DNA of 64,000 nt from Promethearchaeota archaeon (lineage in GTDB: Archaea; Asgardarchaeota; Lokiarchaeia; Sigyniarchaeales; SOKP01): contig JABXKD010000008.1 of NCBI GenBank assembly GCA_013375475.1, forward strand, positions 1-64,000. The letters run 5' to 3'. Numbering within the stretch: position 1 is the stretch's first letter; every line of letters starts with the position of its first letter. The position numbers and the translations under genes were made by a program. The notes under the pieces were generated by a model, which was not told the DNA's origin, did not search any database, and was given only the letters and a program-made list of their open reading frames with translations. This document shows, one piece after another, positions 32,169-41,427 of the stretch.

Positions 32169-33182
32169 TTAATTCTTAGATAACAATTTTTTAGCAACTT
32201 CGAAGGCATAGTTATAATCAAATACCTTTGTTCCTTTAGTTTTTGCGGCTTCTTTTAATATTTCTCCTTCCGAATTTGCTTTTAAACGACCTAATGCTAA
32301 TGCTCCGATTCCAAAAATTCCTGAAGATATTTCTTCATTATCGTGTTTTGGTCTTAATCCCTCAATACCATAAGGAGGAACTAAATTGATATCTACTACA
32401 ATTTTCTTACCATCTAACCTTTTAATTAGATCGCTTGATAAAATTTCAACACCAGCACCAGCTAGAGACCAGATAATAAACGCATCTTTAGCAATTTCAT
32501 ATCTTTGTTCCTTTTCAGGCGCAAATACTCCTTTAATCTCGGTTGCCTCCTCCCCAGCTTCTTTGTTTAGGTCCTTAACAAGGTTTTTTATAAAAATTTC
32601 GTTCGATTTACCCCAAGTTTCAACTAAAAATGTATTCAACCCTTGTTTTGCTGCTAATATGGCTGCAATTCTGGCAACTGGTCCTGCCCCATAGATTACG
32701 ACTTTTTCGCCTTTTAAATCACTAATTTTATGCAAATTTTTAGCATCGTATAAAGTCTTAGCTACAACTGCAGAAGCAGTAGTATGAGAACCCCTTGGAT
32801 CTATTATTACCGGACATTCAAATGGAGGTACTAATGATTCAATAACTTTCTTTGCAATTTTTTCCCCTTCTTTTACATCAGATCCCCCAATAAAAAATGT
32901 TGTGGATGCTTTAGGTTTACGTGAAAATATGGCATCTTGAACAAGTTTAGGGACTTGATCCGCTCTCATTCTACTTATAGGCACAACAATATCAAAACCT
33001 GCATCGTAAGCCATGTTAATATCAAACGGAGAAGCATTATCATCCGTATCAAAAAAATAACATATCTTATCTGATGTATCCTTTTTCTTTATTTTAATTG
33101 GTGTCAATTCTATTATTGCTTTTTTACCAAGAATACTCTCAATTTTATTTTCAATTTCACTATTTTGTGTAATTTTCCTCAT
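32169..33182 (-). CDS. NAD(P)-type methylene-tetrahydromethanopterin/-folate dehydrogenase (MtdA/MtdB-like)
   Basis: 337 residues. The N-terminal domain has the MtdA/MtdB-like KICYFFDTDDNASPFDINMA, DAGFDIVVPISRMRADQV and the STTFFIGGSDVKEGEKIAKK, VPPFECPVIIDPRGSHTTAS blocks. The Rossmann part follows with KVVIYGAGPVARIAAILAAKQG (about 177-198), and the end FDYNYAFEVAKKLL is also family-like. MtdB uses NAD(P) to oxidise methylene-tetrahydromethanopterin in methylotrophs. The cell therefore carries both an F420-type (mtd) and a pyridine-nucleotide-type enzyme for this step. The gene is 42 bases upstream of the Cdc48 gene and directly downstream of the two unknown paralogues at 33.2-34.6 kb, and these probably form one operon. 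Confidence 0.85.
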   Translation of the reverse strand: MRKITQNSEIENKIESILGKKAIIELTPIKIKKKDTSDKICYFFDTDDNASPFDINMAYDAGFDIVVPISRMRADQVPKLVQDAIFSRKPKASTTFFIGGSDVKEGEKIAKKVIESLVPPFECPVIIDPRGSHTTASAVVAKTLYDAKNLHKISDLKGEKVVIYGAGPVARIAAILAAKQGLNTFLVETWGKSNEIFIKNLVKDLNKEAGEEATEIKGVFAPEKEQRYEIAKDAFIIWSLAGAGVEILSSDLIKRLDGKKIVVDINLVPPYGIEGLRPKHDNEEISSGIFGIGALALGRLKANSEGEILKEAAKTKGTKVFDYNYAFEVAKKLLSKN

Positions 33183-33220: not shown

Positions 33221-33952
33221 TTATTTAGAAATCTCAAGTTCAATTTCATCTTCATAAACTTTTTCAATTTCTGCAGTTTTAATAGTTCTTTTAATTTTAA
33301 TTCTTTCTGTATCGATGTCTAAATCGTTTGCTAACTTATCAAAGCCCTCAAAGTGTCTTAAATCGCAAATAAACAACCCTGTTAATTTTTTCCCTTTAAT
33401 CTCTTTGGCAAGGTTTAAAATATTCATCATCATCCAAGCCTCTCTAACTTCATATCGAATTTGATCTTCCTGTAAGTCATAATCTTGGTTGAGATATTCC
33501 TTCCATAAAACTAATTGTTGAAAAAGCACATTTTCTGAAGGAGCACTACCATTTTCTGTAATTATCTCTCCAATTCGCTTTTCAAGTGCTTCTAGCATAG
33601 TTCTATGTTCATCCAATGCTGCAGAAAGATAAGATTCCGCATTTTCAGAGATATCGGCATGTTTAAATCGAATTCCCTTCTTTTTGAAGAGTGTTTTTAG
33701 AGGATCATTTGGGTTTAAAGAGTCATCCCAAAAATTTGGTTTTTCTTCTAAGGCAAAATGAGGTAAGTATTTATCTGTTAAATTGTTGATGAGTTGAAGA
33801 TATTCTTTGCTAATAAGATGTAAAGACCATACCAAATCTTCCTTTTTTTCTTCAGGGACATTGAACCACCAATCTATTGGAAACTCACTTTCTATCATGA
33901 TGAGCTTTAGATGCTTATCTTTTAATGGCTTTAATTCTAATACTTCTGGCAT
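33221..33952 (-). CDS. Unknown protein of the C1 block, paralogue of the next gene
   Basis: 243 residues, alpha/beta and acidic. It begins PEVLELKPLKDKHLKLIMI, and the gene at 33977 begins EVLDLKPVKNKKLIAYM. The two align again at GIRFKHADISENAESYL / GIPYIQVDIPDYAMGYL and in a C-terminal helix-strand unit (VREAWMMMNILNLAKEIKGK / LRPQWIVKKMLDFAKHFEN). The part REAWMMMNILNL...LFICDLRHFEGFDKL faintly recalls TraB/PrgY-like proteins, but this is weak. No metal or nucleotide motif was found. Gene order (paralogue, this gene, MtdB-like, Cdc48) with gaps of 24-42 bases points to an operon, so a role near tetrahydromethanopterin metabolism is a reasonable guess. Confidence 0.75.
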   Translation of the reverse strand: MPEVLELKPLKDKHLKLIMIESEFPIDWWFNVPEEKKEDLVWSLHLISKEYLQLINNLTDKYLPHFALEEKPNFWDDSLNPNDPLKTLFKKKGIRFKHADISENAESYLSAALDEHRTMLEALEKRIGEIITENGSAPSENVLFQQLVLWKEYLNQDYDLQEDQIRYEVREAWMMMNILNLAKEIKGKKLTGLFICDLRHFEGFDKLANDLDIDTERIKIKRTIKTAEIEKVYEDEIELEISK

Positions 33953-33976: not shown

Positions 33977-34594
33977 TTAAAATATAATATTTTGAATTGT
34001 GTGTTTTTTAGTATAGGAGATTACTTTAACTCCTAAGTTTCTTAAATCTGATACGACTTGAGGACAAATATCCTCACAAATATCCTCTTGAACAAAATGT
34101 ACAAAAGAAACAACTTCATTTTCAAAATGCTTTGCAAAATCTAACATTTTTTTCACGATCCACTGTGGTCTTAGCTTTAAGCTTAAAAAAATTTCTTTTT
34201 CTTGAATTTCTTCGCTTAACATATCAATCCAATTTTTTAGACTTTGTCCTTTTAAAGATTCTTTATCACTCATATTGTCGTATTCTTCAAATAATTCATT
34301 TTGAAGTTCCTGTTTTTCAACAATTTCTTCGTAAAGATATCCCATTGCATAATCTGGAATATCTACTTGAATATATGGTATTCCAAGTTTATCTAATGTT
34401 AGTGCAAAAGGTGTTTTCTTAAATTCTTTCATATCTACTTGAAAATCTACCGTTACAAAATTAACCCCTTCCTTTTTAAGAAAATCGGTTAATCTTGATG
34501 TATCTTCATTTTGAAAATACTTGCCATTTTCTTTTGAGGACATATATGCTATTAATTTTTTATTTTTAACTGGTTTCAAATCCAAAACTTCCAT
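33977..34594 (-). CDS. Unknown protein of the C1 block, first gene of operon
   Basis: 205 residues from ATG 34594, which follows a strong GGAGGTG Shine-Dalgarno at the proper distance; an in-frame GTG at 34606 lies inside that element and is unlikely to be used. It is a shorter relative of the gene at 33221: N-terminal EVLDLKPVKNKKL, a central helical hairpin rich in Glu/Lys (about 105-155), and a C-terminal strand-helix part (VVSFVHFVQEDICEDICPQV). Two cysteines occur in that last segment. It is the first gene of the minus-strand operon and is divergent from the wHTH-HdrA gene, sharing its 300-base control region. Function unknown. Confidence 0.75.
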   Translation of the reverse strand: MEVLDLKPVKNKKLIAYMSSKENGKYFQNEDTSRLTDFLKKEGVNFVTVDFQVDMKEFKKTPFALTLDKLGIPYIQVDIPDYAMGYLYEEIVEKQELQNELFEEYDNMSDKESLKGQSLKNWIDMLSEEIQEKEIFLSLKLRPQWIVKKMLDFAKHFENEVVSFVHFVQEDICEDICPQVVSDLRNLGVKVISYTKKHTIQNIIF

Positions 34595-34675
34595 AGAATA
34601 ATACACCTCCTTTATTTTAACTTTCTAAAAAAGTTTTTACTTAATTGAAATATCAAAATCCTATAATATTAAGAC

Positions 34676-34721
34676 TTTGACAAGAAAAATTTTTAACATA
34701 CTGATAAGAAAAATTGTCAAA
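34676..34721. repeat. Paired direct repeats within a TTTGACAA/TTGTCAAA inverted repeat
   Basis: TGACAAGAAAAATT (34678-34691) and TGATAAGAAAAATT (34702-34715) differ at one base and are spaced 24 bases apart. The outer ends also form a perfect inverted repeat, TTTGACAA (34676-34683) and TTGTCAAA (34714-34721). A further TTGTCAAA occurs at 34854-34861, close to the HdrA start. This is the kind of layout seen for operators, but no binding data exist and the region is AT-rich. Confidence 0.5.
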
Positions 34722-34812: not shown

Positions 34813-34833
34813 ATATATGTTTACAACATATAT
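34813..34833. repeat. ATATATG-N7-CATATAT dyad
   Basis: Seven-base arms ATATATG (34813-34819) and CATATAT (34827-34833) around TTTACAA. ArsR-family operators often are AT-rich dyads of this kind, and the downstream gene starts with such a domain. The arms also look like TATA-box material, so a promoter is an equal alternative. Confidence 0.35.
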
Positions 34834-34915
34834 TATCATAATGAAAAATTCATTTGTCAAAAAAAAGTTTTAAACAAAATAAATTTCAAAAAAAAATCAA
34901 TAGGAGAGCTCAAAA

Positions 34916-37462
34916 ATGGATGTTTATTCAATTTTAGCCCATCCGATGAGAAGAAAAATCTTATACCTTCTAGAAGAGGGGGGTTTTATTCCATATACCG
35001 AATTAATGGTGAAGTTAGGTGTAAAACAAACAGGACAATTAAATTTTCATTTGAAAAAGCTTAATAATTTAGTAAGTAAGGACAAAAAATCGTATTACTT
35101 AACAGATGATGGGAAAAGAATTCTACGGATGATAGGATTAAACAAAAGAATTTTATCTGGAGAAGAAATAGACTATTTGAAATCAAAAGGGAGTGAAATA
35201 AACAGAATAGGTGTTATTATTTGTAACTGTAATACAGAAGTTTCGAATGTGCTTAACACTAAATCTTTATATAATTATGTAAGTAAAATAAATGATGTTG
35301 TCTCAGTTAAAATCTTTGATAATTTATGTCAAGAAAAAAACCAAGACAAAATAAATAATTGGATTAATGATAATTTCATAAATAAAATTGTTATTGCTGC
35401 TTGTTCTCCTAAAACACATCAACACATATTTGAAAGTCTTTTCCAAAATATAGTTGATCGTGCAAATATTGAGATTGCAAATATAAGAGAACAATGTTGT
35501 TGGGTACATTTTTCAAGCAAGAAGGATAATAATAGTCTTTTAGTTCTGAAAAAAGCACAATTAATTATAGAAGCTTCAGTTAATCGAGTAAGGCTTCAAA
35601 AAAGAATTAAAATAAAAAGAGTTGAGGTTGAAAAAAGTTGTGCTATTGTTGGAGGTGGGATTGCGGGTATGAAAATAGCTTTAAACTTAGCAAGGACAGG
35701 TATCAAGTGTTATCTAATAGAAAAGTCTCCAACATTAGGAGGAAAGGTATCAAGATGGCAAAGACTTTCTAATATGGGAGATTGCTCTGCATGTTTCATC
35801 TCTGAATTAATTGGGGAGATTGTAAAAGAAAAAGAAATCGAGATCTTGACAAATACGGAAATAGTTAGTGTATCGGGAGAAGTTGGCAATTTTACTATAG
35901 GTTTAATTAAAAAACCTCGCTATGTAGATGAGGCTAAATGTACAGGTTGTAAGCAATGTATTGATATTTGCGCTCAAGAGAAATTTAATAAGTATGAATT
36001 TGAATTAACAAAGAGAAAAATAATTCACTTTCCTTTTCAATACTGTTATCCTTATATTCCCGTTGTTGATAAAGAAGATATTGCAGATTGCCTTGAATGT
36101 GGGATATGTGAACGAGCTTGTGCAAATAAGGCAATAGATCTATTAGAAAAGCCCCAGAAAATAAGGATTAAAGTAGGTGCAAAAGTTATAGCTATTGGTT
36201 CAGATCTTTATTCAAATTTAAAGGAATATAATTATAATCCACAAAATGATGTGATAACTTCAGCAGAATTTGAAAGAATTTTAAGTTCAGATGGCCTAAC
36301 TGGTGGAAAAATCGTAAAATTATCAGATGGGAAACCAGTAAAAACATTATCAATTATCCAAGAAGTAGGATCTTCAAACTATCTGTGTGAATATTCAGAT
36401 ATTTTAGCCCTAAAGTATATAGATGTTATTAGGGTTAAGAACCCTAATTGTGAAGTTAATGTTTTTTACGATTTAAGTAAACTCAAAGAAAAAGACGAGA
36501 TAATACTAAAATCCACTCATCCGAGATTTCTTTATGCTAATAAAATATTAATTGAGACAAGAGAGAGTTTTAATTATGTAGTTGCGGATTCTATTGAGTT
36601 TCCGAGTGATTTGATTGTTTTAAATCTTAAACTAATTCCAAATAAGGATTTAAAATCTCTAAGAAAGATTATGCACTTCACATTAAACGATCATGGTTTT
36701 ATGAGTGAAGAAACTTTAGCTTCTGGTATCTATGGTGTTGGAACAATATTTGGGCCATTAAATTACCACTCAACCGTAGCAACTACCAATAACATAGCGT
36801 TAAAAGTAATATCGCTTCTTTCAAACAACATGTTAATAACAGAATATACCGGAATAGAGATTAATGAAGAAAAATGTGGAATGTGTAAACTCTGTGTAAA
36901 TTCTTGTCCTTACAATGCAATTAGTATAAACTCTGAAAAGTTGATTATTGATAAGTTTAAATGTAAAGCTTGTGGGATGTGCGTAAGCGTTTGTCCTACA
37001 AATGCTATCGAAATGAATATAAATACCTCGGAAAAGATTCTAAAATCGATCGAGGTTTTCTCAAAATTCAATGAAAAACCAAAAATCATCGCATTTTGTT
37101 GCCAATCGTGTGGTTATGCTGCCGCTGATGATGCAGGATTAAAAAAATTGTTATATCGCCCTAACGTTTTTATAATCTCTGTTCCTTGTGCTGGCCGTAT
37201 TGATACTGAATTCATTATTAAATCTTTTGAAATGGGATTTGATGGAGTTATGGTTATAGGTTGTAGAAATGATTCTTGTAGATATATTGATGGGATTGAA
37301 AAACTAAAAAGAAGAGTTAGGCTTTTAATAGAAATTCTAGGAAGAAAGTTTAAAAAGCGGATAATAGTGATGGGCGTAAATGGAGTAGAAGGAAGTGTAT
37401 TTTCTGAACTTGCTAATAAATTCTATAATTTACTAAAGGAGGAGATTAAAATTGAAGCTTAG
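34916..37462 (+). CDS. hdrA: Fusion of winged-helix domain, HdrA and MvhD
   Basis: 848 residues, four parts. Residues 1-75 are an ArsR-like winged helix (DVYSILAHPMRRKILYLL; LNFHLKKLNNLVSKDKKSYY wing). Residues about 96-205 are the HdrA N-domain with CNC, AACSPKTH and NIREQCCWVH. A FAD fold follows (VGGGIAG at 245-251, GGKVSRWQ, DCSAC), with ferredoxin-like clusters at 342-353 and 392-402, and two standard 4Fe-4S motifs at 654-664 and 683-693. Residues about 725-845 are MvhD with CCQSCGY, VPCAGRID and GCRNDSC for a 2Fe-2S centre. HdrA bifurcates electrons and MvhD connects it to hydrogenase; mvhG and mvhA follow directly. A DNA-binding domain on this enzyme is unexpected. HdrB and HdrC are absent here. 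Confidence 0.92.
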   Translation: MDVYSILAHPMRRKILYLLEEGGFIPYTELMVKLGVKQTGQLNFHLKKLNNLVSKDKKSYYLTDDGKRILRMIGLNKRILSGEEIDYLKSKGSEINRIGVIICNCNTEVSNVLNTKSLYNYVSKINDVVSVKIFDNLCQEKNQDKINNWINDNFINKIVIAACSPKTHQHIFESLFQNIVDRANIEIANIREQCCWVHFSSKKDNNSLLVLKKAQLIIEASVNRVRLQKRIKIKRVEVEKSCAIVGGGIAGMKIALNLARTGIKCYLIEKSPTLGGKVSRWQRLSNMGDCSACFISELIGEIVKEKEIEILTNTEIVSVSGEVGNFTIGLIKKPRYVDEAKCTGCKQCIDICAQEKFNKYEFELTKRKIIHFPFQYCYPYIPVVDKEDIADCLECGICERACANKAIDLLEKPQKIRIKVGAKVIAIGSDLYSNLKEYNYNPQNDVITSAEFERILSSDGLTGGKIVKLSDGKPVKTLSIIQEVGSSNYLCEYSDILALKYIDVIRVKNPNCEVNVFYDLSKLKEKDEIILKSTHPRFLYANKILIETRESFNYVVADSIEFPSDLIVLNLKLIPNKDLKSLRKIMHFTLNDHGFMSEETLASGIYGVGTIFGPLNYHSTVATTNNIALKVISLLSNNMLITEYTGIEINEEKCGMCKLCVNSCPYNAISINSEKLIIDKFKCKACGMCVSVCPTNAIEMNINTSEKILKSIEVFSKFNEKPKIIAFCCQSCGYAAADDAGLKKLLYRPNVFIISVPCAGRIDTEFIIKSFEMGFDGVMVIGCRNDSCRYIDGIEKLKRRVRLLIEILGRKFKKRIIVMGVNGVEGSVFSELANKFYNLLKEEIKIEA

Positions 37463-38216
37463 ATTTTTAATTACATCTTTAACATCTTGTACTGGATGTA
37501 TAACAGCATTAATATCGCTGGATATCTTTCCACAATTTCTTGAGAGAACGAAAATCGAACACTTTCCATTTATATTTGATAATTTAAACATAAAAGAATG
37601 CGATATAGCGCTAGTAGAAGGGTGTGTGTCCGAAAAGAACCAGATCAAATATCTTCATGAAATACGAAAAAATGCAAAAAAACTATATGCATTCGGTACT
37701 TGCGCAGCATTTGGGGGGATTCTTAGTCTCTCAAATAAGAAAGAAGCGTATCCCATTTCAAAATTTGTAGATGTTGATGGAGTAATACCTGGATGTCCTC
37801 CTCCCGCCATACTTCTAGGTAATTGTTTATTAAAGCTAGTTGAGAACAAAAAACTCAAGTTAAACTTAAAAAATATGTGTTCAACTTGTCCTTTAAGCAA
37901 CCAAGTGCCATTGGGGTTATCGTTAACGATAAAAAAAATTAAACCAAGAAACGATGAAATTCAATTTCCAGAAGAAAATTTATCGTGTTTTTTGAATGAT
38001 GAGATTTTATGTTTAGGTCCCGTTACTCGAGATGGCTGCGATCATCTTTGTATACACTACGGATTACCCTGTGAGGGATGCTTAGGACCGGTTTCAAAAG
38101 ATTTTACATCGAATTTTATCAATTTCTTAAGCCTTTTTAACCTTTCTAAAGATTTAAGAAAATATAAAGGGATATATAATAGGTTCTCAAAATCACTTTT
38201 AGGAGGGAAAATTTGA
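37452..38216 (+). CDS. mvhG: F420-non-reducing-type [NiFe] hydrogenase small subunit
   Basis: 254 residues. It begins at TTG 37452, preceded by a strong GGAGGAGA element inside the end of the HdrA gene, and overlaps that gene by 11 bases. Ligands for the proximal 4Fe-4S cluster are visible: SCTGC (12-16), VEGCV (about 56-60), GTCAAFGG (about 82-89) and PGCPPP (about 113-118). A second cysteine group NMCSTC and CDHLCIHYGLPCEGCLGPV (about 195-213) supplies further clusters, as in group 3 MvhG subunits. It passes electrons from the Ni-Fe subunit to MvhD/HdrA. There is no Tat signal, so it acts in the cytoplasm. Confidence 0.92.
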   Translation: MKLRFLITSLTSCTGCITALISLDIFPQFLERTKIEHFPFIFDNLNIKECDIALVEGCVSEKNQIKYLHEIRKNAKKLYAFGTCAAFGGILSLSNKKEAYPISKFVDVDGVIPGCPPPAILLGNCLLKLVENKKLKLNLKNMCSTCPLSNQVPLGLSLTIKKIKPRNDEIQFPEENLSCFLNDEILCLGPVTRDGCDHLCIHYGLPCEGCLGPVSKDFTSNFINFLSLFNLSKDLRKYKGIYNRFSKSLLGGKI

Positions 38217-39517
38217 TGGATAAAGTTGTAGTACCGTGCACAAGAGTTGAAGGTCATGGGAACTTAAACATTTATTTAAAAAATGATGAAATTTATCAAA
38301 CTGAATTGAACTTTTCAGTATTCAGAGGATTTGAAAATATTTTATTAGGCAAAAAGTTAATAGATATTCCAAATATAGTATCTAGAGTTTGTGGCTTGTG
38401 TTACGTTTCTCAAACAATTGCTAGTTGCAAAGCAATTGAAGCTATATACGGAATAGAACCATCACATGAATTAAGTTTGCTTAGAAGACTTCTATTATCT
38501 GGAGAATTAATAAAGTCGCACATTATGCATTATTTTTTTCATTCCTTGCCAGATCTACTAAAAATATTTAATATTTACGGTAACATTGATGAACGTTATA
38601 ATTTAATTAATTACAATCCCCATTTAACAAGTAATATTTTTAATTTAATAAAAATTAGTTCAGAAATAAATAAATTAATGGGAGGAAGGGTAATACATCC
38701 AATTACACCTTTGCCTGGAGGAATAATATTCAATCCGGGTCAAAAAAGCCTAATCTTTGTAGAGAAATACCTAAAAAAGGGAATTAGTAATATAGAAATT
38801 GTAATTGAGAATTTTATTGATTTATTTTCTGCTTTTGATCCTCCTGCAGAATTTGATCTTTCAAATCCTATCTATTTTGGCTTAAAAAATGATATAGATT
38901 TTGATAGATATGAAGGAAACCTCATACTTAAACAAGATGAAACAACCTACGACGATTTTCAAGCAAAAAATTATTCAAAATATTTTGATAAAGACCCTAA
39001 TCTTTATGGGATTATGTTTAAGACGAAATCAAAAAATAAAATCTTAACAGGGCCATTAGCGCGCTATAATTTAACTCAAAATTATGGGATAGATAAAATA
39101 TCCGAATATTTAAGCAATTTTGGAAAAAAATGGAAAAATAGTTTATTATTTTTAAATTTTTTACAATTAATCGAAATTTACTACGAAATTGAAAAAAGCA
39201 TTGAATTAATAACTACAATTTCATTTAAAAGTAAATATAAACTTAAGCAACTGAATTCAATAAAGGAAACAAATGGAATAGGGGTTATCGAAGCACCAAG
39301 AGGTATTTTGATGCATCATTATCATTTAAATAAAGCTAAAATCGTTGACCAAGTAAAACTATTCATTGCAACAGAAATAAATTTGCCTATTCTTAATAAA
39401 ATGATAACTGAATATGCTAAAAAGTTATATGAAAAAGAAGATATAGATTCTGTTAAAGAAAAAATACAAATAATGATAAGAGCATTTGATCCTTGTATAT
39501 CGTGTGCTTCTCATTAA
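38216..39517 (+). CDS. mvhA: [NiFe] hydrogenase large subunit without C-terminal extension
   Basis: 433 residues from ATG 38216, which overlaps the mvhG stop in TGATG and follows AGGAGGG. All four nickel ligands are present: RVCGLC (C59, C62) and DPCISC (C427, C430). The protein ends exactly at DPCISCASH, the residue at which maturation proteases normally cut; no tail remains to remove. The N-terminal motif reads CGLCYVSQ, with glutamine where most large subunits have histidine after the second cysteine. Together with MvhG and the HdrA-MvhD fusion it should oxidise or evolve H2 in the cytoplasm. No hydrogenase maturation gene is in the window. Confidence 0.92.
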   Translation: MDKVVVPCTRVEGHGNLNIYLKNDEIYQTELNFSVFRGFENILLGKKLIDIPNIVSRVCGLCYVSQTIASCKAIEAIYGIEPSHELSLLRRLLLSGELIKSHIMHYFFHSLPDLLKIFNIYGNIDERYNLINYNPHLTSNIFNLIKISSEINKLMGGRVIHPITPLPGGIIFNPGQKSLIFVEKYLKKGISNIEIVIENFIDLFSAFDPPAEFDLSNPIYFGLKNDIDFDRYEGNLILKQDETTYDDFQAKNYSKYFDKDPNLYGIMFKTKSKNKILTGPLARYNLTQNYGIDKISEYLSNFGKKWKNSLLFLNFLQLIEIYYEIEKSIELITTISFKSKYKLKQLNSIKETNGIGVIEAPRGILMHHYHLNKAKIVDQVKLFIATEINLPILNKMITEYAKKLYEKEDIDSVKEKIQIMIRAFDPCISCASH

Positions 39518-39575: not shown

Positions 39576-40139
39576 TTGAAAAGAAATCTCTTAAATAATG
39601 CCAAAATTAAGAATTCATTTAGAGAATTGTGTGAAATTTTTTTATTTTATTTTGATGAGACTATAGGGCATGTCTCTCTTCTAATCCGTCCAGAAAATGC
39701 GCTAGATCATGATTCGGGAAAATTACGTCTCTTAAAATACCATCCAATTTGGTTTTTAGAACTTAAAGATGAAACTACAATTAACCGAATCGATTTAGAA
39801 TATTGTAATCAAATGTATCTTGCGAAAAAGTTTGTTATTGAATCTAAGAGAGTAAAAAAAAGGACAGAGTCTTTTCAGAAATTGGGTGAAACTATTGTGC
39901 TGATACTTGTGTTACCCACAGATTTAGATGTTTTTGGAGGAGAAGTATTAAACTTGTTAACGAAAAAATTAATCGAAAAATTTGATAAGACACTTTATCA
40001 TGTAATCGAGTCAGAAATTGCGAAACTAGAAATAATAAAAACGGAGAATTTAATCAATAAGATAAAAAAAGGAGATCAAATAAAAGCAGAAATAAACGCT
40101 ATAATTAACCTTACTTTTGGGAATATTTTTCATCATTAA
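39576..40139 (+). CDS. Small longin-like protein, unknown function
   Basis: 187 residues starting at TTG 39576. The segment FYFDETIGHVSLLIRPENAL, then HPIWFLELKDETTINRIDLEY, AKKFVIESKR and ETIVLILVLPTDLDVFGGEVLNLLTKKLIEKF suggests an alternating strand-helix fold of the longin/roadblock sort, followed by a long C-terminal helix. Asgard archaea carry many such proteins, often near small GTPases. It lies next to a Rag-like GTPase gene (convergent) and 58 bases after mvhA. It could regulate that GTPase or be part of the hydrogenase operon; neither is shown. Confidence 0.6.
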   Translation: MKRNLLNNAKIKNSFRELCEIFLFYFDETIGHVSLLIRPENALDHDSGKLRLLKYHPIWFLELKDETTINRIDLEYCNQMYLAKKFVIESKRVKKRTESFQKLGETIVLILVLPTDLDVFGGEVLNLLTKKLIEKFDKTLYHVIESEIAKLEIIKTENLINKIKKGDQIKAEINAIINLTFGNIFHH

Positions 40140-40473: not shown

Positions 40474-40493
40474 TTAATAATCAATCTTATTAA
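40239..40493 (+). pseudogene. Interrupted small gene or decayed fragment
   Basis: A frame starting at ATG 40239 (MNRFLKFDQAIQSSHHSNY) runs 21 codons to TAA at 40302-40304 and then stays open for a further 62 codons (EFFEKELLNEKVEKCLPEEE ... DLKLINNQSY) to TAA 40491-40493. The composition on both sides of the stop looks protein-like and helical. It overlaps the end of the convergent GTPase gene by 20 bases. It may be a recently broken gene, a remnant of a longer one, or a downstream ORF with a TTG start. Confidence 0.4.
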
Positions 40494-41427
40494 GGAATTT
40501 TTTCAGATTTTTAAAATCTTCTCCATCTAAAGAACTAATAACAGTGTTAAATGTTTCTTCACTTTTACTCTTAGTAACTATCATCAACACAGATCCGTTA
40601 CTTACTTCCCTTACTAAAATATAGTTGTTATCACTTTCATATATAACTGTGGATAATTCTAAAGGAGAAATAGCAGAATCAGATAAGTTCATAATTTTTG
40701 TAAAAATCTGATAGATATTACTATCAAGAGTTCCTATCTCAAATTTCATGAATTGGAGAGGTTTGTGCTCAAATTTACCTAAAGTTGAAGCTATTAATAA
40801 ACCATCAGGTTGATTGAATAAAAAGTATTCAGAAAGCGTACCTAACTTCATTTGATCTAACATATGCCTTATTTTTCCAAGTTTTTGTAAAGCTAATGTA
40901 TTCTGTTGAATTTTGTAATCAAGAATTTCGATCAACCTATGTTGGGCACTTCCTTCTTTCACCGATACAGGAGTAAAAGCAACCTTGCTTTTTAAATCAT
41001 CCGTTAAGCCTTTAATCAAGAGTTCATAAATATCATCTTCTTTTGACTCTTGAAGATCAATTTTATTCAACAAAACATATACTATTTCAACTCCAGGACT
41101 ATATTCAAAAATATATTTCATGAAATTATCAAAGATTTCTTTTAACTTAGGTTCCTCTGCCGCTGAATCAACCATGAATACTGCTGTCATCACTTCAGAA
41201 AAAATAAGCTCACGCTTTTTTTCTGAAAAATAACTGTCCATATAGAGTTGTTGCCCTCCCAAATCCCAGATGGATAGTTCCATAATCCCTCTAAAAATAA
41301 AATTTTCTCTCGAGACTCCTTTAGTAGGTTTCAGATTAAGGACTTTCATAAAGTTATATCCTAAGCAAGTAGTCCGCATTAAGGATGTTTTACCCGCACC
41401 ACCCGGACCAAACAGAAGTACCTTTAT
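40474..41427 (-). CDS. Rag/Gtr-like GTPase with C-terminal roadblock-type domain, probable AUA start
   Basis: About 317 residues if counted from AUA 41427. G motifs: P-loop GPGGAGKTS (about 7-15), WDLGGQQ (54-60, glycine rather than alanine as in Rag/Arf), NKID (121-124). Switch phrase MDSYFSEKKRELIFSEV resembles RagA/Gtr1. The last 120 residues (DGLLIASTLGKF ... NLKKFLNKIDY) look like a roadblock/longin fold, as in eukaryotic Rag GTPases. The first ATG, at 41379, would remove the P-loop. Upstream of it the frame is open only to TGA 41434-41436 and holds no ATG, GTG or TTG. GGTG at 41435-41438 is placed as a Shine-Dalgarno for AUA 41427. Alternatively, a four-base insertion has broken an ATG start at 41439. 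Role by homology: nutrient or membrane signalling. Confidence 0.82.
   Translation of the reverse strand: MKVLLFGPGGAGKTSLMRTTCLGYNFMKVLNLKPTKGVSRENFIFRGIMELSIWDLGGQQLYMDSYFSEKKRELIFSEVMTAVFMVDSAAEEPKLKEIFDNFMKYIFEYSPGVEIVYVLLNKIDLQESKEDDIYELLIKGLTDDLKSKVAFTPVSVKEGSAQHRLIEILDYKIQQNTLALQKLGKIRHMLDQMKLGTLSEYFLFNQPDGLLIASTLGKFEHKPLQFMKFEIGTLDSNIYQIFTKIMNLSDSAISPLELSTVIYESDNNYILVREVSNGSVLMIVTKSKSEETFNTVISSLDGEDFKNLKKFLNKIDY

Follow-up and report, generated by a model that had tools for sequence, protein, structure and literature searches.

A conserved fusion of a winged helix with HdrA and MvhD in Lokiarchaea, a candidate hydrogenase-linked regulator of its own and a divergent operon

The organization of the locus is given below. 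All coordinates refer to the analyzed stretch of 64,000 nucleotides from a lokiarchaeal contig (the window), and the evidence for individual features is added in brackets.

32169-33182, minus strand: MtdA/MtdB-like methylene-tetrahydromethanopterin dehydrogenase with an Mpt_N domain
33221-33952, minus strand: u243, unknown family, related to u209
33977-34606, minus strand: u209, leading the divergent operon, of unknown family
34702-34719: predicted operator O1, TGATAAGAAAAATTGTCA, exact (TGATAA-N6-TTGTCA), u209 side
34821-34838: predicted operator O2, TTACAACATATATTATCA, one mismatch, directly 3' of a TATA-like stretch, fusion side
34842-34859: predicted operator O3, TGAAAAATTCATTTGTCA, one mismatch, the weakest
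34916-37462, plus strand: HTH-HdrA-MvhD fusion gene, 848 aa (ORF, profile matches, orthologs, AlphaFold, PDB fold matches)
34916-35140, plus strand: winged helix (DUF7347), residues 1-75 (profile, conservation, AlphaFold)
35030-35071, plus strand: predicted recognition helix, residues 39-52, TGQLNFHLKKLNNL (alignment and AlphaFold)
35141-35200, plus strand: disordered linker, about residues 75-95 (pLDDT < 50, alignment)
35201-37054, plus strand: HdrA, residues 96-713 (profile, alignment, PDB fold match)
36353-36421, plus strand: site of the lost HA4 ligands, residues 480-502 (alignment)
37079-37441, plus strand: MvhD/FlpD module, residues 722-842 (profile and PDB fold match)
37452-38216, plus strand: MvhG-like [NiFe]-hydrogenase small subunit (profiles)
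38213-39517, plus strand: MvhA-like large subunit of the [NiFe] hydrogenase, with conserved Ni ligands (profiles, alignment)
38384-38413, plus strand: L1 motif RVCGLCYVSQ, with Gln67 in place of the His (comparison with HoxC and HoxG of C. necator)
39488-39517, plus strand: C-terminus DPCISCASH followed by the stop codon, no maturation peptide (comparison with HoxC and HoxG)

The fusion gene (34916-37462, plus strand) is a single ORF, uninterrupted by stops over its 848 codons. Residues 2-73 match the Pfam family DUF7347 (PF24038; E 7e-13 for the head scanned alone) with 43.8-49 bits against a gathering cut-off of 27.6, and profile scans assign residues 97-842 to HdrA2 and residues 724-841 to FlpD/MvhD. 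The AlphaFold model of residues 3-80 (pLDDT about 83) has the order helix-strand-helix-helix-wing-helix, with helices at 10-22, 27-34 and 39-52, a two-strand wing at 53-62 and a further helix at 64-80. The HdrA part, whose best PDB fold match in this model is 5odc_A, comprises an N-terminal cluster domain, a FAD domain with an inserted ferredoxin and a C-terminal ferredoxin; the MvhD part matches 8rvu_F. The HdrA-matched region begins at residue 96, and the head therefore represents an addition.

The initial annotation had described an ArsR-like winged helix joined in frame to complete HdrA and MvhD modules. Its in-frame junction is borne out by the single ORF, the DUF7347 profile and the predicted fold, and the checks that it had named agree, because the HMM searches matched DUF7347, HdrA2 and FlpD/MvhD and the structure prediction of residues 1-75 gave a winged helix. 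The proposed ArsR likeness stood only in part: the winged helix is there, but the similarity to ArsR, HTH_20 and HTH_5 is sub-threshold in the profile scan (29.6 bits for the ArsR NCBIfam model against a cut-off of 55). Residues 1-95 of the f1 orthologs contain no Cys in the alignment and none is conserved in the winged helix, in agreement with the earlier remark that the wing holds no thiol sensor. An ArsR/SmtB metalloregulator was ruled out by the sub-threshold score and the lack of a Cys metal site.

The fusion is real and conserved. A search for it across 228 Asgard genomes, as the initial annotation had advised, recovered 57 headed proteins in 56 genomes, and two fusion-bearing genomes are closed on a single contig (G154, G155). 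Within the first set of relatives, headed orthologs occur in 30 of the 58 genomes (29 besides the genome of the window). Outside Asgard there is at least one, in the Bathyarchaeon L128, a lower bound for the spread beyond this group. In the phylogenetic tree, whose long branches make the exact internal placement less sure, a branch with 100/100 support separates the fusion proteins from 31 headless HdrA proteins. The fusion has one origin. In the ortholog alignment, the mean column entropy is lowest over residues 1-75 (0.74), followed by the C-terminal ferredoxin domain (0.76), and reaches 0.91-0.93 in HdrA-N, the FAD/ferredoxin region and MvhD; by this measure, the winged helix is at least as conserved as any of the enzyme domains. 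The predicted recognition helix keeps T39, G40, L42, N43, F44 and H45 without exception in the Lokiarchaeal orthologs, from f1 through f4. A head under such constraint is functional, and the recognition face is the part that has been kept.

The redox part exhibits the fold of a bifurcating HdrA with its FAD and the N-terminal, inserted and C-terminal cluster ligands. Apart from HA4, no cluster of HdrA or MvhD has lost its ligands in the alignment, and C103, C105, C138, C163, C194, C342-C352, C392-C402, C654-C693 and the GGGxAG motif are invariant (alignment A2). All four HA4 cysteines, equivalent to positions 386, 399, 403 and 404 of 5odc (counted from the alignment), are missing, and the window protein reads QEVGSSNYLCEYSD versus the canonical QCVGSRD..YCSNVCC. 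The HdrA part, initially annotated as complete, is not. In solved complexes, HA4 takes the high-potential electron en route to CoM-S-S-CoB (PMC12350162). Its motif QC...YCSxxCC is kept in canonical HdrA and in the f21, f27 and Bathyarchaeal fusion orthologs but gone from f22 and all Lokiarchaeal fusion proteins. The loss in Lokiarchaea removes the electron exit towards HdrBC, and the retention in f21 and f27 documents that loss of the bifurcation branch was not required for the fusion. Neither HdrB nor HdrC is located beside the fusion gene of the window; the CCG-type HdrB motif is absent from the Asgard loci scanned, bar one weak match 6 kb away in L235, and among all loci scanned HdrB and HdrC genes lie only near the HA4-keeping Bathyarchaeal gene of L128. 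Since HA4 of the high-potential branch has been lost in the lineage and no HdrB or HdrC lies alongside, the window protein should not be called electron-bifurcating, as it initially had been, and canonical bifurcation was ruled out on the same grounds.

The hydrogenase large subunit carries RxCGxC and DPCxxC, the CxxC Ni ligands, at both ends of complete copies. With these CxxC pairs and ShyA and VhuA (group 3) as its best models, although far below the equivalog cut-offs, it is a group 3 [NiFe] large subunit. The subunit was compared with HoxC of the regulatory hydrogenase and HoxG of the energy-converting hydrogenase of C. necator (pHG1, NC_005241), and two deviations emerged. The L1 motif RVCGLCYVSQ resembles RVCGICSVSQ of HoxC, whereas HoxG (RICGVCTGCH) has His at this position, as does the other [NiFe] large subunit of the same genome; and the protein ends with DPCISCASH, as HoxC ends with DPCMVCTVH, whereas HoxG has a tail. 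Gln for the L1 His is present in f1, f4 and f5 (masked in f6), and a short C-terminal tail is kept in f4, f5, f21, f22 and f27 but lost in f1 and f6. The changes within the family are nested, with the head in all, HA4 loss in f22 and the Lokiarchaea, then Gln, then tail loss, a correlative pattern of the sort that gradual evolution from enzyme to sensor would be expected to leave. Gln for His and a missing C-terminal extension are described traits of H2-sensing hydrogenases (PMC5665086, PMC10073562), but the former was reported not to be needed for sensing in the RH itself (PMC5665086). The likeness to regulatory hydrogenases appears to be a resemblance by convergence, not group membership, and the two traits make H2/redox sensing more likely. 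No kinase was found among the neighboring genes scanned.

The u209, u243 and MtdA/MtdB-like genes adjoin the fusion in most orthologous loci. A weak u209 match is present in only five of the 22 relatives without a high-score fusion ortholog (one of them, G038, has a truncated copy), so retention or loss of the u209 operon tends to go with that of the fusion. u209 and u243, about 20% identical to each other, have no Pfam or NCBIfam match. Assigning a function to u243 by its fold was abandoned, as the AlphaFold model is of moderate quality (pLDDT 75) and matches no PDB entry with E below 0.29.

The intergenic region from the start of u209 (34606) to the start of the fusion (34916) holds one exact and two one-mismatch copies of the palindrome TGAYAA-N6-TTRTCA. 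Taken alone, the window provides weak evidence for a predicted operator (five sites at one mismatch or fewer versus 1.95 expected; five of 100 shuffles reach five), and it is the comparison with relatives that makes the case strong. A count of every 5-mer palindrome with spacers of 0-20 in 19 divergent upstream regions ranked GATAA with spacer 6 first, the motif having first been spotted by eye in the very sequences used to test it. The full motif is exact in 14 of the 19 divergent representatives (Markov control mean 0.01), occurs at other spacers in 0 or 1 of these regions, and is present in two or more copies in the promoter regions. In the own genome (3.9 Mb) there are three exact sites, one of which is the fusion promoter, and a wider regulon was rejected at exact-match stringency because the other two lie inside coding ORFs. 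The sole exact site in the genome of the relative G014 is again the fusion promoter. An exact match at 39983-40000, downstream of MvhA and within the coding frame of u187, was taken as chance.

The predicted operator follows both operons when rearrangement separates them. The f21 fusion proteins are only 37-38% identical and their genes lie in another order (fusion-MvhG-MvhA-u-mtdB, all in one direction); each of the three f21 loci has an exact site at -57 to -62, and both f22 loci have one at about -96. The Lokiarchaeal subgroup with a FrhB-like gene inserted before the fusion has exact sites at about -1500 and -1340, ahead of the FrhB-like gene, and the relocated u209 operons (L235, L117, L125) have further sites at a distance of about 100 bp from the start of u209. 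Of the 44 exact sites in all the fusion loci retrieved, 43 are intergenic, although ORFs of at least 100 aa cover 84% of this sequence. Among the f4 loci, L035 has a one-mismatch site and L036 and L037 have only two-mismatch sites at matching positions. Exact sites are absent from six loci of headless HdrA paralogs, one of which holds a one-mismatch match, and from the u209-like loci of fusion-less genomes. The f27 orthologs, the Bathyarchaeal L128 locus and the truncated G038 copy have no operator at one mismatch or fewer, and L230 has no operator site; the best candidate in f27, TGTAAA-CAAAAA-TTATCA, was discarded with two mismatches. The operator data support autoregulation together with control of the neighboring mtdB-like operon, and the earlier suggestion that the protein controls its own or the divergent C1 operon thereby gains a conserved predicted site at both promoters.

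The best reading, with a probability of about 0.6, is that a hydrogenase-HdrA complex has been made into a one-component regulator that responds to H2 or redox state. The DNA-binding redox flavoprotein would act in complex with the MvhG-MvhA-type [NiFe] hydrogenase, and its winged helix would bind TGAYAA-N6-TTRTCA as a dimer at its own promoter and that of the u209-u243-mtdB-like operon. HdrA complexes are dimeric; the present one is presumably dimeric as well, so that its linker-borne heads could occupy the two half-sites. The signal would be how far the FAD and Fe-S clusters of HdrA are reduced, by H2 via the hydrogenase and/or by ferredoxin, and reduction may alter the position, spacing, exposure or dimerization of the heads on the flexible linker. 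DNA binding by the fusion protein is strongly suggested by the comparative evidence, and its winged helix is very probably what binds the operator; that redox or H2 is the signal has about an even chance. At the fusion promoter we infer repression from the position of the operator, downstream of the TATA-like stretch (ATATATATATG, ending near 34818) and ahead of the start codon. On the u209 side the operator lies upstream of the TATA-like stretch on the minus strand, a position that suits either sign. The most specific version must be regarded as tentative and falls somewhat short of even odds: a group-3-derived hydrogenase of convergently regulatory type would feed HdrA-MvhD, whose winged helix would read the H2/ferredoxin state at the promoter with no kinase or second messenger.

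Precedents exist for each ingredient, namely, PutA, HoxBC and HdrR, but the open-access papers searched describe no complex that combines them, nor an HdrA with a DNA-binding domain or winged helix in Asgard. PutA, which senses proline and moves to the membrane, likewise has an N-terminal DNA-binding domain on a redox flavoenzyme. The folds are unrelated (RHH and PRODH/P5CDH versus winged helix [DUF7347], HdrA and MvhD), which limits the analogy to the design, and the predicted cofactors of the fusion are FAD and many Fe-S clusters plus an associated hydrogenase. PutA is an autogenous repressor of its own regulon, and the redox state of its flavin is tied to function switching (PMC5293562). 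HoxBC/HupUV, with the kinase HoxJ and the regulator HoxA, share the L1 Gln and the lack of a C-terminal extension with the large subunit of the window; however, they belong to another hydrogenase group and signal via a separate kinase and response regulator, whereas here the large subunit is of the group-3 type and it is the electron-transfer subunit that carries the DNA-binding head. HdrR of Methanosarcina barkeri is a winged-helix protein that binds a palindromic promoter element and controls the hdrBCA operon (PMC11218639), but this stand-alone activator, likened here by its description, is unfused to Hdr and has no redox module. HdrABC-MvhAGD of methanogens (5ODC) and Elp-Hdr (8RVU) share the HdrA and MvhD folds, the FAD site and most cluster ligands; the fusion locus differs in its winged-helix head, the fusion of HdrA with MvhD, the loss of HA4, the lack of HdrB and HdrC at the locus and the regulatory-type large subunit.

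The strongest competing explanation, which we nevertheless consider unlikely, is a working H2:ferredoxin (or C1-linked) oxidoreductase of PutA-like design, whose head represses the operon only while the subunit is surplus, unassembled or free, with no signalling role for redox. The conserved Ni ligands of MvhA, clusters of MvhG and all other cluster ligands of HdrA and MvhD make intact electron transfer probable, and the operator at its own promoter would suit such an enzyme. It leaves the FAD with no obvious terminal partner once HA4 is lost, however, and fits poorly with the regulatory-type traits of the hydrogenase and with a second operon under the operator. Distinctly less probable is a winged helix that docks a protein (e.g., u209 or u243) instead of DNA, with a separate transcription factor owning the sites. 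Winged helices can act as protein-interaction modules, the fusion and the u209 operon co-occur, and f27 has the head without the operator; yet the recognition helix does not vary, no DNA-binding domain other than the fusion head was recognized among the locus genes scanned, and the site is missing from the six HdrA-paralog loci and from the u209-like loci of genomes without the fusion.

The match of the HdrA and MvhD folds to solved complexes would also be expected of an ordinary electron-bifurcating Mvh-Hdr enzyme with an incidental N-terminal extension, but this explanation is very improbable in view of the lost HA4 ligands, the failure to find HdrB/HdrC at any scanned locus other than the HA4-keeping Bathyarchaeal one, and the deep conservation of the extension. 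A sequencing or assembly error that merged two genes, the caveat of the initial annotation, has a negligible probability. The window comes from a fragmented MAG whose contamination is 6%, but the same chain recurs in 56 Asgard genomes, some of them closed, the same N-terminus is found in the Bathyarchaeon, and the fusion is set off by the maximally supported branch; the 57 orthologs and the closed genomes led us to rule out an artefact.

Known H2 sensing via HoxBC-HoxJ-HoxA requires a kinase relay, and there is continuing debate on how the signal leaves a regulatory hydrogenase. If true, the one-component regulator would constitute a direct physical link from a hydrogenase electron chain to a promoter, the cell might read H2 or redox state directly at the DNA, with no sensor and messenger in between, and the covalent design would make the question of signal hand-on testable in one complex. 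A hydrogenase-based one-component regulator may even deserve a kind of its own. Lokiarchaea are close archaeal relatives of eukaryotes and proposed H2 syntrophs with few characterized regulators, and the locus would offer an operator-level view of their metabolic control. The ortholog series from fusion via HA4 loss and Gln for His to the loss of the maturation peptide may record an enzyme turning into a sensor.

Some further observations concern neighboring and paralogous genes. The u209/u243 genes travel with the MtdB-like gene and the fusion and are sometimes duplicated (L058, L059, L239). In the Bathyarchaeal MtdB-like protein (L128:10720-11865, minus strand), the N-terminal stretch LHIAAKSKEHLEGLEALMAELDIKTEQI resembles, by eye, the C-terminus of u243, a possible fusion. 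A Rag/Gtr1-like small GTPase gene (40474-41379, minus strand) encodes VLNLKPTK within its N-terminus, like the VLxLKPxK start of u209/u243. Many HdrA paralogs in the genomes of the relatives are open only with TGA read through (e.g., G000:C282:7647-9563 and G007:C112:15579-17462), which is consistent with selenocysteine-containing HdrA. In L235, L236 and L237, a gene for a FrhB/FdhB-like F420-dehydrogenase subunit is located ahead of the fusion in the same operon, thus suggesting F420 input in some lineages.
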